64,000 bases of DNA from Sphingomicrobium clamense (GTDB taxonomy: Bacteria > Pseudomonadota > Alphaproteobacteria > Sphingomonadales > Sphingomonadaceae): positions 1,968,001 to 2,032,000 of the forward strand of contig NZ_JAHVAH010000001.1 in NCBI RefSeq assembly GCF_019264355.1. Direction: 5' to 3'. The number at the start of each line of letters is the position of its first letter. The stretch's first letter is position 1. Under the pieces are notes generated by a model that worked only from the letters and a program-made list of their open reading frames with translations, was not told the DNA's origin and ran no database searches. Position numbers and translations under genes: made by a program. Positions 7,717-63,283 of this stretch are shown one piece after another.

Positions 7717-7789
7717 GCCGGCTTAGCTCAGCTGGTAGAGCAGCGGTTTTGTAAACCGAAGGTCGCGGGTTCGACTCCTGCAGCCGGCA
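7717..7789 (+). tRNA. tRNA-Thr (anticodon UGU)
   Basis: A full cloverleaf can be drawn: acceptor GCCGGCT pairs with AGCCGGC, D arm GCTC/GAGC, anticodon loop TTTGTAA with anticodon TGT, and a T arm around GGTTCGACTCC. The 3' CCA is not fully encoded (CCG follows the discriminator A). ACA codons are read. Confidence 0.95.
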
Positions 7790-59648: not shown

Positions 59649-59936
59649 CTAGCGAAACTGAGACATGACGTGGCTCAAAACCGCGGGATATATCGGCTTC
59701 TCGAATTCCAGACCGGCTTCGAAATTTTCGCACCAGCAAACATAGGCCGGAATAGCTTCTAACCCCGGGAACCTAATGAACACACGGGTGTCTAACTTGA
59801 CCCGGCTGACCAATGAGACCCGACAGCCGAGCGGGCTGACGTCTAATACCTTTAATTTCTGAGGATGCGCCCCTGGCTCACGAACTTCAACAGTCGCAAC
59901 AAACGGTCGGCGTGGGGCTCGGCGTTCGGTCGTCAT
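59649..59936 (-). CDS. Single-domain PilZ protein (copy 2)
   Basis: A 95-residue PilZ protein: MTTERRAPRRPFVATVEVRE (RxxxR) and KVLDVSPLGCRVSL (DxSxxG), then FIRFPGLEAIPAYVCWCENF. Both c-di-GMP-binding motifs are complete. No output domain is present. It has a clear ATG. With the copy at 58936 and the GGDEF-EAL protein it suggests local c-di-GMP signalling. Confidence 0.83.
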   Translation of the reverse strand: MTTERRAPRRPFVATVEVREPGAHPQKLKVLDVSPLGCRVSLVSRVKLDTRVFIRFPGLEAIPAYVCWCENFEAGLEFEKPIYPAVLSHVMSQFR

Positions 59937-60009: not shown

Positions 60010-60375
60010 CTAGTTAATCATTGAGAACCGAAATACTCTGGACCTGTCGCCAGATACCGACGTCTGCATCATTTCTAACTTTGCAAGGCGTTTGTCGAAG
60101 TGCCGGTCGAACTCCGCCTCCGCCGCAGCGGTTACGACAACAGAATGACTACCATCGTGCGTAGTCCGATATTCGATTACACCAAGACGACGAAGGGTTT
60201 CCGTAAAAATGGCGGCCTTTCGATGCGAAGAGCCGAAGTGCCTGATGAGGTCCTGAACTTTCGTTTGGTGCCCAAATGCTTGGGCCTGATAGATGCTTAT
60301 CAGGGCAACGATCGGCCCAATCTCCGTACCGTCCTGGCGTTCGTGGTGATAAAGCTCTTCGAGCAATTTCCCCAC
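60010..60375 (-). CDS. Small winged-helix regulator (island copy 3)
   Basis: A 121-residue protein with MarR-like layout: GPIVALISIYQAQAFGHQTK, VQDLIRHFGSSHRKAAIFTE, TLRRLGVIEYRTTHDGSHSV, then a helical C-terminus (FDRHFDKRLAKLEMMQTSVS). Start is GTG at 60375. It resembles the proteins at 45928 and 49605 in size and domain layout rather than in close sequence. Confidence 0.62.
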   Translation of the reverse strand: MGKLLEELYHHERQDGTEIGPIVALISIYQAQAFGHQTKVQDLIRHFGSSHRKAAIFTETLRRLGVIEYRTTHDGSHSVVVTAAAEAEFDRHFDKRLAKLEMMQTSVSGDRSRVFRFSMIN

Positions 60376-60809
60376 GAACGCTTTTCACCGTGCAATCCGC
60401 TCACCGTGCGGCACGCCAGAGGTTTTAATTCTTGTGAGCGAGTTAAGAACGGACGGCCCCCAAACAAAATTTGGTGGTACCGAGCAAGCCTCACCCTAGC
60501 GCCATACGAGCGCAAGACAAGCGACAAATGAAACTACAACCTATTCGACCTTTCGTTTCGATATGATCACTTCGGCCGGACCGAATGCAAAAAGAGGTAC
60601 CGGTCAAGCCAAGCCCCTCCAAAAACTTGACCAGGGTTAAAGACCATTGTCTTAGCAATCTGCCGAATCTATGGGGAAAGTTCCGTGTTTCGATCGATTT
60701 GGCTCGCGCTCTGTTTGCCGATTGCCTTGGGGGAGGCCTTGCTATTTGCCCTCCCCGTACATCCTGGCGGCCTTAACAAAGTCATCGACTGTTACGACGA
60801 CGGTTGCGA
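60376..60809. other. Intergenic region without a supported gene
   Basis: Several short frames exist on both strands (for example one starting at 60585) but none has a convincing ribosome site or recognisable domain. The region presumably holds the promoter of the minus-strand regulator. Confidence 0.45.
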
Positions 60810-61264
60810 ATGAAACAAGATCAATTCGGGGCGCTATCCATAGGCTGCAATGTTGTGGAGATTGGCCCCCAAGCCTTAAATCTCGATGCTATCACCAATA
60901 TCCCTATCGAGACAGAGACTGTCCGCAAAGGGAACGCTTTGCTGGTTACGCGACTGTTTGCTCTGGTCGGTGGGCTGGTCTTCCTAACTTCACCGTCATG
61001 GCTGGAATCAGTTATCGTTGGCGCCATAGGCATCGTGGCCTATCAGGCTTGGCTGGAGAGCTCCGCGCCAATTATCATCTTATCCTTGAGACAGGGTCGG
61101 CGCGGGTCCGGGTTTACAGTTCGAGGTCGAAAGAGCAGGTGTTAGGTTTTCGCGATGCCGTTGAGGAAGCGCGCGGTGCGCCTCTTGAGGCGGAGCTTTG
61201 TGTTGACCATACCTTGCCTGCGCAGGTCGTCGCGGCAGGATCGGCATTCCAGTGCACTCAATGA
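60810..61264 (+). pseudogene. Frameshifted DUF6232-like membrane protein gene
   Basis: The first part, from ATG 60810, reads VVEIGPQALNLDAITNIPIE and a hydrophobic pair (LFALVGGLVFLTSPSWLESV, IVGAIGIVAYQAWLESSAP). Near 61068-61080 the sense continues in another frame as NYHLILETGSARVRVYSS and KEQVLGFRDAVEEARG up to 61264, which completes the DUF6232-like pattern (strand plus short helices after the membrane part). One base must be lost or gained there. The original frame ends at 61145. It may be a genuine pseudogene, a programmed shift or a sequencing error. Confidence 0.55.
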
Positions 61265-61293
61265 GAATGCAAGGTACGAACCGAGACGAAATG

Positions 61294-61420
61294 AAAGGGA
61301 CTCTCGTCGCATAGCGACGAGAGTCCCTAGGCTTTTCAGGACCAGTGAAAAGCAAGTCGAGCATCGGGGGGAGAGTTGATGCCCTTCGTGACCAACCCTC
61401 ATTAAATCCAGACGGCTTAA
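61294..61420 (-). ncRNA. Candidate small RNA, copy 1 of a tandem pair
   Basis: Read on the minus strand: ATGAGGGTTGGTCACGAAG near the 5' end; hairpin GCATC-aactctcccccc-GATGC with a C-rich loop that could bind ribosome sites; hairpin CTTTTCA-ctggtcc-TGAAAAG; then a perfect 14 bp stem, GGGACTCTCGTCGC-tat-GCGACGAGAGTCCC (61297-61327), followed by TTTCATTTC. This is a compact sRNA with Rho-independent end. The copy at 61795 has the same order of elements. No protein frame fits. Confidence 0.65.
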
Positions 61421-61438
61421 GCAAAGACCTATAATCTA

Positions 61439-61459
61439 TTCGTTCTGGCGGGACATTGG
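61439..61459 (-). promoter_or_regulatory. Conserved upstream block of sRNA copy 1
   Basis: On the minus strand CCAATGTCCCGCC followed by AGAACGAA is identical at 19 of 21 positions to the block 61936-61956. Both blocks lie exactly 52 bp upstream of the shared GGTCACG element of the RNAs, while the sequence between them differs, as expected for a promoter or regulator site. Confidence 0.6.
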
Positions 61460-61533
61460 AGCGTGAAGCGGATGCTTCATAAGGGAAGTCGTATCTACGT
61501 CGTCGGCTCTTGCGAGAAAACAACAATCGGATT

Positions 61534-61689
61534 TCATTTCATGTTCGTCACGGCTGACTGTGTCTGTCGCAGCCAGTTTTCCTGACGCCGCATTTCGAAC
61601 GCTAGCGCTAGATAGGATTCTTTAGTCGCAACGCTCGTCGCCGCTTCAGCCTTCGCCAAGACTTTCTCAAAATCGTTGTCCATGTACAT
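61534..61689 (-). CDS. Small helical protein, AKAEAA family copy 2 (51 aa)
   Basis: The frame encodes 51 residues, MYMDNDFEKVLAKAEAATSV and onward to a final VTNMK, predicted as one amphipathic helix with a Trp near residue 39. It shares about half its positions with the 46-aa protein at 51974-52114, including LAKAEAA and RQT. It lies between the two tandem sRNA candidates on the same strand. An alternative ATG is two codons in. No known family is recognised. Confidence 0.65.
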   Translation of the reverse strand: MYMDNDFEKVLAKAEAATSVATKESYLALAFEMRRQENWLRQTQSAVTNMK

Positions 61690-61794
61690 TTTCAAGACCC
61701 ATATTCATCAACAACATTGTGTTGTGTGAACGCTCATATTTTACGGCGCACAACTTGCGCTATCTCGTAAAACTACGACAATGACCGAAATACG

Positions 61795-61915
61795 AAAGGG
61801 CCCCCGCTGCGATGCAACGAGGGCCCTTTCGCCTTTTCAGGACCGGTGAAAAGTTTGTCAGACATCCGTGGGGTGATGTCGTTCGTGACCAACTCTCATA
61901 TAAAAAGAAGGTGTT
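61795..61915 (-). ncRNA. Candidate small RNA, copy 2 of a tandem pair
   Basis: Minus strand: ATGAGAGTTGGTCACGAAC; hairpin GACATC-accccacg-GATGTC; hairpin CTTTTCA-ccggtcc-TGAAAAG; then a terminator stem GGGCCCTCGTTGC-atc-GCAGCGGGGGCCC with two G-T pairs (61798-61826) and TTTCGTATTTC. It is the paralogue of the RNA at 61294: the first and middle elements are almost identical, whereas the first hairpin arms and the terminator have changed on both sides while keeping pairing. Confidence 0.65.
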
Positions 61916-61935
61916 TCGCGAAAATCAACAATCGG

Positions 61936-61956
61936 TTCGTTCTGGTGGAACATTGG
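61936..61956 (-). promoter_or_regulatory. Conserved upstream block of sRNA copy 2
   Basis: On the minus strand CCAATGTTCCACC followed by AGAACGAA matches the block upstream of copy 1 (61439-61459) at 19 of 21 positions and equal distance from the RNA. A TTTTTATATG segment between block and RNA could serve as the -10. Confidence 0.6.
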
Positions 61957-62070
61957 GGAAGAATTGGCCTGACGAGGCATCTCGGTGCCAAGTAAACTCA
62001 AGTCGTAAGCCAATATGTGCGTCACGCTAAAGCGGGGGGCGCTTCCATCCGACTACCCAAGACCTGGACT

Positions 62071-62290: not shown

Positions 62291-62345
62291 CGTTCCCGGC
62301 TTCCAATGTTGAAAGCGTGCGGTCAGGGACGGGCCCGAACATTAG

Positions 62346-62382
62346 AAAAGTGAGACTCTCGCTGCATGGCAACGAGAGCCTC
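62346..62382 (-). terminator. Terminator of the repetitive secreted-protein gene
   Basis: On the minus strand GAGGCTCTCGTTGC-cat-GCAGCGAGAGTCTC forms a 14 bp stem (one G-T and one C-A position) followed by ACTTTTCT. It lies about 80 bp after the stop at 62461. Confidence 0.65.
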
Positions 62383-62460
62383 TTAGACTATCTATGACCA
62401 GCCAGAAGCGACTCTATCGAAACGACTCCAAAATCGAGCCGCTCCCGCACATACAAAGGC

Positions 62461-63189
62461 TTATTCGTTATTCGTTTGAGCGTCGCTCGACGCGTGTGCC
62501 GAACCGCTGACGAGCACCGATCCGTTGACCGGAACCTTATTATTGCGAGCATCCGCCAATACCTGCGCGCCCTGTCGCGACGTCGCGGCAGCGCTCTGAC
62601 GCGAACGGACGGCAACCTGCTGCGTGATCTGCGTAGCGGCACTGCGGGCCGAATTTGCGCGACTGGCTGCACTAGCGGTCGCTTCGCTGGTAGCCGATTG
62701 CCCGCTAACGATCACGCCCGTGACGTCGCTGGTCCCGAGCGTGTCAACGCCGAATGAGGCATACTCATTAGCCGACGCGCTCCCCGAGGCGCCGCCCTGA
62801 CCCCCGAAGCCAGCGGTCGAAGTCGCCCCGTTCGCAACCGCGTCGACGGTGCCCGCGAGGCCAGCATCTCCGCGCACCGAGCCGTCATTCGTGTTGACGC
62901 TTCCGATGGCATTGCCGGATCCACTGCCCGTCACGGCGCCCGACACGCTGTTGGAAATGCTATCGGCAACGCCGAGCGAACCGGAACCCGTTAGGCGGTT
63001 TGTCAGCGAACTCTGACCTTGAAGCGTGTTGCCGGCAACCGAGTTGATCGCGCCATCGACGGATCCGCCGAGGGTCTGGTTGATGGTGCCGCCGATGTTG
63101 CCTAGCACCTGAGCGGATGCCGGTGTCGCAACGAACATTGCCGGACTGGTGATGGCGAACGCGAAAATCATTCTCTTCATGTTCTTCAT
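62461..63189 (-). CDS. Secreted Gly/Ser/Ala-rich repetitive protein
   Basis: A 242-residue exported protein: signal peptide MKNMKRMIFAFAITSPAMFV ending at ASAQ (about residue 27). The mature part is low-complexity: Gly/Asn/Ser-rich (LGNIGGTINQTLGGSVDGAI) and later Ala/Ser/Arg-rich (SEATASAASRANSARSAATQ), with VNGSVLVSGSAHAS near the end. No Cys is present in the mature part. Similar low-complexity secreted proteins occur in sphingomonads with unknown function. It is transcribed after, and in the same direction as, the protease gene, 94 bp away. Confidence 0.7.
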   Translation of the reverse strand: MKNMKRMIFAFAITSPAMFVATPASAQVLGNIGGTINQTLGGSVDGAINSVAGNTLQGQSSLTNRLTGSGSLGVADSISNSVSGAVTGSGSGNAIGSVNTNDGSVRGDAGLAGTVDAVANGATSTAGFGGQGGASGSASANEYASFGVDTLGTSDVTGVIVSGQSATSEATASAASRANSARSAATQITQQVAVRSRQSAAATSRQGAQVLADARNNKVPVNGSVLVSGSAHASSDAQTNNE

Positions 63190-63283
63190 GGATCGTCTCC
63201 TCTTGTCAGCTAGGGGTAAATTCACCCCCGATCCGTGATGAAAACGACACCACTCAGTTACTTCATCCCAGTTTTTTGCGAAA

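Follow-up and report, generated by a model that had tools for sequence, protein, structure and literature searches.

Do the two similar minus-strand units at 61296-61459 (unit 1) and 61795-61956 (unit 2) of the window, by which we mean the whole 64,000-nt stretch of DNA analysed, represent sibling genes for small regulatory RNAs, and what might such RNAs do? The two units present the same elements in the same order, namely a 21-bp block, 45 bp of spacer and the motif GGTCACGAA, followed by two hairpins, of which the first has a C-rich loop, and by a terminator stem. The arrangement recurs at an offset of 497 bp, the motif starting at 61393 in unit 1 and at 61890 in unit 2. The individual elements are listed here from 5' to 3' on the minus strand, together with their identity to a further copy of the same genome (unit 3).

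61936-61956, minus strand: unit 2 upstream block CCAATGTTCCACCAGAACGAA, a putative promoter element or site for a regulator, 19/21 identical to unit 1 and 18/21 to unit 3
61891-61935, minus strand: unit 2 spacer, 45 bp, 25/45 identical to unit 1, with TTATAT as a possible -10 box near its end, picked by eye
61861-61890, minus strand: unit 2 GGTCACGAA and hairpin 1, arms GACATC/GATGTC, loop ACCCCACG
61833-61853, minus strand: unit 2 hairpin 2 CTTTTCACCGGTCCTGAAAAG, arms identical to those of unit 1
61795-61829, minus strand: unit 2 terminator stem with a short T tract after it; arms unlike those of unit 1, yet pairing
61439-61459, minus strand: unit 1 upstream block CCAATGTCCCGCCAGAACGAA, 20/21 identical to unit 3
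61394-61438, minus strand: unit 1 spacer, 45 bp, 38/45 identical to unit 3, with TTTAAT as a possible -10 box near its end, picked by eye
61359-61393, minus strand: unit 1 GGTCACGAA and hairpin 1, arms GGGCATC/GATGCTC, loop AACTCTCCCCCC; not the minimum free energy (MFE) fold
61331-61353, minus strand: unit 1 hairpin 2 GCTTTTCACTGGTCCTGAAAAGC, from folding and comparison with unit 2
61296-61328, minus strand: unit 1 terminator stem, 15 bp, listed by the terminator scan

Aligned by blastn, unit 1 matches unit 2 with an E value of 2.4e-12 and 73% identity over query positions 4-131; hairpin 2 of both follows the pattern CTTTTCA-(C[TC]GGTCC)-TGAAAAG, and the terminator stem is at least 15 bp long in each. 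The motif GGTCACGAA alone is just modestly above chance, since 24 sites with no more than one mismatch occur in the window against 15.8 expected and one of 100 shuffles reached 24, and the significance rests with the whole arrangement. With a gap of 4 nt and an insertion of 1 nt separating their aligned RNAs, the two units have no reading frame, and hence no protein, in common. The earlier note had described two minus-strand units about 500 bp apart in the same order, headed by an upstream block with 19 of 21 identical positions, and both statements hold; even if the 25/45 identity of the neighbouring spacer is taken as background, such a block match has a binomial P of 0.0007. The same note had placed exactly 52 bp between block and motif: the spacing is indeed equal in units 1, 2 and 3, while the figure is 45 bp here and depends on where the boundaries of the block are drawn.

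The similarity between units 1 and 2 begins at this block, CCAATGTNNCNCCAGAACGAA, because 19/21 positions are identical within it compared with 11/40 in the 40 bp upstream of it. In the genome as a whole, exact matches to the block pattern are restricted to the three units, with four other sites at three mismatches. The promoter scan returned no consensus promoter at the units, including no sigma-70 consensus match in the unit 2 spacer, and readings of the block as a sigma-54, ECF or LexA site were set aside by eye, a GTTC/GAAC dyad being present in unit 2 only. The common block suggests that one regulator or sigma factor turns the units on.

Unit 3 is located at C1:117052-117224. Measured along the contig it is 1.91 Mb from the window units, a distance that would shrink to 0.29 Mb on a circular contig. 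It is 87% identical to unit 1 by blastn and has kept both the block and the spacing. Units 1 and 3 each belong to a larger duplication:

60089-61499, no strand assigned: duplicated segment with a copy at C1:115662-118682 (L003), 81.5% identical over 1430 columns

The segment comprises a winged-helix-like gene, a small membrane protein gene and unit 1 or unit 3. The small membrane protein gene (60804-61264 of the window, plus strand) differs from its L003 paralogue in frame near the end, probably through a frameshift. The winged-helix-like protein gene (60010-60375, minus strand) has two copies in this genome, of which the paralogue weakly matches MprA, and a PilZ-domain protein gene (59649-59936, minus strand) also lies near the RNA units.

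Such a setting raises the question whether the units are decaying repeat copies, i.e., remnants of a duplicated accessory segment that resemble each other through recent duplication and have no regulatory role. Unit 3 does lie within a 1.4-kb duplication whose winged-helix-like gene was found in none of the 70 other genus genomes searched, and the scan of the species-genome collection found no relative of this gene; moreover, the membrane gene has an altered frame near its end in the window copy, and its first part is more similar between the copies (311/343, 90.7%) than the RNA (99/114, 86.8%), so that conservation within the segment does not peak at the RNA. However, conservation falls sharply beside the RNA of units 1 and 3, with boundaries on both sides: 21 of 24 positions are identical in the block stretch, compared with 15/26 immediately past the terminator and, upstream of the block, 29/39 followed by 17/74. 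Decay without function is also at odds with the paired changes in the stem arms and with a distant relative that has the same order of elements in a different gene context, both described below, and we regard it as improbable.

The relative was recovered with a covariance model built from the three copies of this genome (R2) and applied to 71 genus genomes, among them the own genome (G000). Outside the own genome the best match, in a second species (G077), scored 55.5 bits (E 1.1e-14), and the next foreign match 29.7 bits. This first G077 unit shows the same element order in a different gene context and is identical to unit 1 at 42 of 70 positions before the terminator, where the maximum of 100,000 shuffles was 34. 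In a rough, sequence-only comparison with a model made from just two copies, with no base pairs and with the upstream region included (R1), it scored 27.4 bits instead of 55.5. A paralogue 17.7 kb away in G077 scores 22.1 bits with R2, matches the first unit by blastn with an E value of 2.3e-19 and has no 5' part. The two G077 units share an upstream block of their own, GCTCTCAAAATGAAAGCGA-CGAGAC, unlike the block of the window, and together with the three copies of the own genome they bring the family to five units in two species. As a separate observation, about 1.2 kb from the first G077 unit a SAM-I/IV riboswitch (RF01725) was found at L071 2818-2922 (plus strand), with 51.4 bits above a gathering score of 41.1.

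A model of all five sequences (R3) gave matches at E <= 0.02 in 17 of the 71 genus genomes, convincing only in G000 and G077. Its 37 rows include the five units; 13 further loci were rejected by eye as protein genes with terminators or unrelated coding sequence, as was an own-genome row at C1:889512, a short ORF resembling a small lipoprotein plus terminator, and the remaining 18, among them antisense and terminator matches of the own genome, were not inspected singly, some of them also occurring in the R2 search. For R2 in the genus, eight loci were inspected and the alignments of the best nine matches viewed. Beyond the genus, a run of R2 over 396 genomes from the order and one of R3 over 397 from the family, the latter sample without G077, yielded no further convincing member, with nine first-look candidates scored per genome, so that remote members may be missed. 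The order search matched 30 of the 396 genomes at E <= 0.001, where 18 loci were inspected and at least 10 further rows lay outside the inspection, and the family search gave weak matches in two other genomes of the 397, both rejected by eye. Within the window, R2 gave 25.4 bits to a candidate fourth unit, 62344-62452, which was discarded because it matches mainly through the terminator that follows the gene at 62461-63225; the stem of this terminator (62352-62382, minus strand) resembles that of unit 3 (33 bp, 91%).

The exact hairpin 2 pattern had no match in the species-genome collection, from which the record of the window itself may be absent, the unit pattern had none in viral contigs, and blastn with the units had none in phages or plasmids. 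At gathering scores, Rfam 15 assigned no family to the units and only a tRNA (7717-7789) to the window; with E values up to 5 admitted, a single match to a unit appeared, in which sar RNA aligned with the first G077 unit (23.9 bits, E 0.44), well short of its gathering score of 43. A full-text literature search, with most subscription papers outside its coverage, led to no published description recognised as this RNA, and no term for an sRNA was found in PMC4741004. We regard the units, as judged by these searches, as a narrowly distributed putative sRNA family that is new to Rfam. The covariance search suggested at the outset found homologues and conserved pairing, the homologues being present in 1 of the 70 other genus genomes, and the original proposal of paralogous small RNA genes with a common upstream element is well supported by the third copy and the second species.

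At the level of RNA structure, none of 200 dinucleotide shuffles folds as well as unit 1 (z -5.4) or unit 2 (z -5.7), and the first G077 unit has a z of -5.2. Folding is weaker in unit 3 (z -3.1, one of 200 shuffles as good) and in the second unit of G077 (z -2.6, three of 200). In the five-sequence alignment, 90.7% of the cells pair, compared with 43-50% when the partners are slid. Eleven pairs change on both sides, against a shuffle mean of 5.2 and one to three in the slid structures, and one of 500 shuffles reaches 11; the number of pair types is not above that of shuffles (363 of 500 reach it). Eight of these 11 pairs are in the terminator, two in hairpin 1 and one in hairpin 2, and because any working terminator keeps its pairing, the case for the remaining fold is moderate. 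According to the earlier note, the arms of hairpin 1 and of the terminator differ between copies and still pair, as a mark of selection on RNA structure. Most of the compensatory change is in the terminator. In hairpin 1, a comparison of units 1 and 2 shows a single double-sided change, from G-C to A-U, and one pair that is G-U in one unit and G-C in the other, while unit 2 has its outermost pair disrupted; selection on structure is supported in the main by the terminator.

The C-rich loop in the 5' hairpin is seen in the alignment of units 1-3, hairpin 1 not being part of the MFE fold of unit 1: the three-hairpin fold has -46.2 kcal/mol compared with -47.8 kcal/mol for the MFE, which places hairpin 1 at 1.6 kcal/mol above it. 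Hairpin 2 of unit 2 is present when a shorter piece is folded and lost in a longer one. T tails are short in the units, and the unit 2 terminator is missing from the consensus scan, in which unit 1 is listed, because its T tail is too short. In addition, hairpin 1 can be closed by a helix between GACU and the GGUC within the conserved nonamer. A bulge of 5 nt then remains, with the sequence ACGAA in the window genome and AAGAC in the first unit of G077. In G077, GACU is replaced by GACC, turning a G-U pair of this closing helix into G-C, and the core three pairs are invariant in the four sequences that have them, the region being absent from the second G077 unit; this invariance is consistent with a closing helix, short of proof. 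Given such GGUC/GACY pairing around hairpin 1, the nonamer would be partly structural.

The conservation of GGTCACGAA and hairpin 2, which exceeds that of the loop, together with loops that differ among the three own copies, could also be explained if the RNAs mainly bind protein, the bulge and hairpin 2 acting in the manner of sponge RNAs to capture an RNA-binding protein, with a secondary part for the C-rich loop. We hold this to be unlikely, as no known protein-binding motif was identified in the units and the loop has stayed C-rich in units 1-3 as well as in the first G077 unit. Even less probable is a role as cis elements, with unit 2 as leader or attenuator of a 49-residue ORF (61534-61683, minus strand) between the units and unit 1 as the terminator region of its neighbours. 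The ORF, which has no NCBIfam match, begins about 110 bp below the unit 2 terminator on the same strand, and the unit 1 stem could also terminate the convergent membrane gene; but at the loci inspected no such ORF follows units 1 and 3 or the two relatives, and the gene contexts vary between copies.

How do the units, read as trans-acting sRNA genes, compare with described sRNAs? GsrN is a small RNA that combines a 3' terminator with a C-rich 5' loop, an arrangement predicted for the units as well. In Caulobacter, according to the parts of the report consulted, the exposed C-rich loop near the 5' end of GsrN pairs with G-rich mRNA leaders such as katG (PMC5869019). GsrN-type genes have an EcfG promoter and are usually found at the phyR/ecfG locus, whereas the five units have neither: in the EcfG test (GGAAC-N-CRT), GGAAC occurs within 150 bp upstream of 0/5 units compared with 11/11 phyR-linked RNAs of other genera, and the best PhyR match of the own genome, at C1:775526, is distant from the positions of the units, C1:117 kb and 2,029 kb. 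Orthology to GsrN was rejected on these two grounds, the absent EcfG promoter and the distance from phyR; by analogy, the units may at most work like GsrN and are not classed as such. The 3.8 kb around the own phyR contain no GGAAC-N15-19-CRTT match and no close match to a GsrN-like loop, and hold a few short C runs, some of them intergenic. When a GsrN-like RNA was compared with the 71 genus genomes by blastn, there were only two matches, both apparently in coding sequence. For Erythrobacter litoralis, a figure legend of PMC5869019 notes no apparent gsrN-like gene.

Elsewhere in the family, weak R2 matches turned out to be a different RNA. Eleven of 18 inspected loci, from three genera (g24, g28, g53), contain CCCCCCTCCCGTCCAAGCGGCTGGTGAT, ten exactly and one with a single difference, and each has GGGAAC upstream. 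At these loci (L112, L114, L116, L119, L121, L122 and L125-L129, near position 1500), the near-invariant RNA has the loop CCCCCCTCCCGTCC, an EcfG-like promoter and a terminator, and the neighbouring protein is PhyR in all three loci tested. We read the RNA with CCCCCCTCCCGTCCAAGCGGCTGGTGAT as GsrN-like and as part of the locus for the general stress response in three genera.

CcsR RNAs (CCUCCUCCC-motif, RF02791) have C-rich loops and several copies, and resemble the units in both features. No unit matched RF02791, the only listed match reaching 17.3 bits against a gathering score of 65.3 and lying off the unit in L093. The SisA-D or alpha-R8 (MmgR) RNAs, as presented in the parts consulted of PMC12559287, share with the units several sibling copies per genome and a pyrimidine-rich pairing site; they have one fixed core, UUUCCUCCCU, in a single-stranded stretch, whereas the units have differing loops within a hairpin and no Rfam match. 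Among sphingomonads, the SuhB sRNA of Sphingopyxis granuli is described in the consulted part of PMC6563040 as trans-encoded, binding the 5' UTR of its target mRNA, 61 nt long and highly conserved in its genus; the units, with their proposed trans action, were compared with this 61-nt RNA by description only.

Taken together, we favour, with a probability of roughly 0.6, the reading that the window carries two complete, separately transcribed sibling genes for trans-acting sRNAs of about 100-115 nt, belonging to a small family with a third copy. As in intrinsically terminated trans-acting sRNAs, the units are intergenic and have a conserved structure and a 3' terminator, with unit 2 failing the T-tail rule of the scan. 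Transcription would start near the TTTAAT or TTATAT box, or give an RNA of about 140 nt should the block be the -35 element, and one regulator or sigma factor acting at the shared upstream block would activate the siblings. The 5' part of the RNA is predicted to form a bulged hairpin, consisting of the GGUC/GACU closing helix, the ACGAA bulge and an inner stem, that would present the C-rich loop, followed by the second conserved hairpin and the intrinsic terminator. The loops AACUCUCCCCCC, ACCCCACG and AUCUCUCCACUG may act as seeds that recognise mRNAs by their G-rich leaders or their Shine-Dalgarno regions, where pairing would change translation or stability of the message; pairing with ribosome-binding sites, already proposed in the earlier note, is plausible. 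Loops that differ between siblings could widen the set of targets, while hairpin 2 and the bulge may be retained for stability or for a protein partner.

A more far-reaching and rather doubtful extension of this reading is a young, fast-diversifying sibling family in which the RNA chassis (bulged hairpin, hairpin 2 and terminator) is kept and the pairing loop and promoter block are replaced between species, swapping regulatory inputs and outputs, possibly as a stand-in for GsrN where none is recognised at phyR. The narrow distribution limits the general importance of the family, and few sRNAs have been described from these bacteria, judging by the literature found. With siblings at different stages of divergence, and varied loops and promoter blocks on one scaffold, the units would offer a compact system for studying how sRNAs duplicate and acquire new targets and new regulators.
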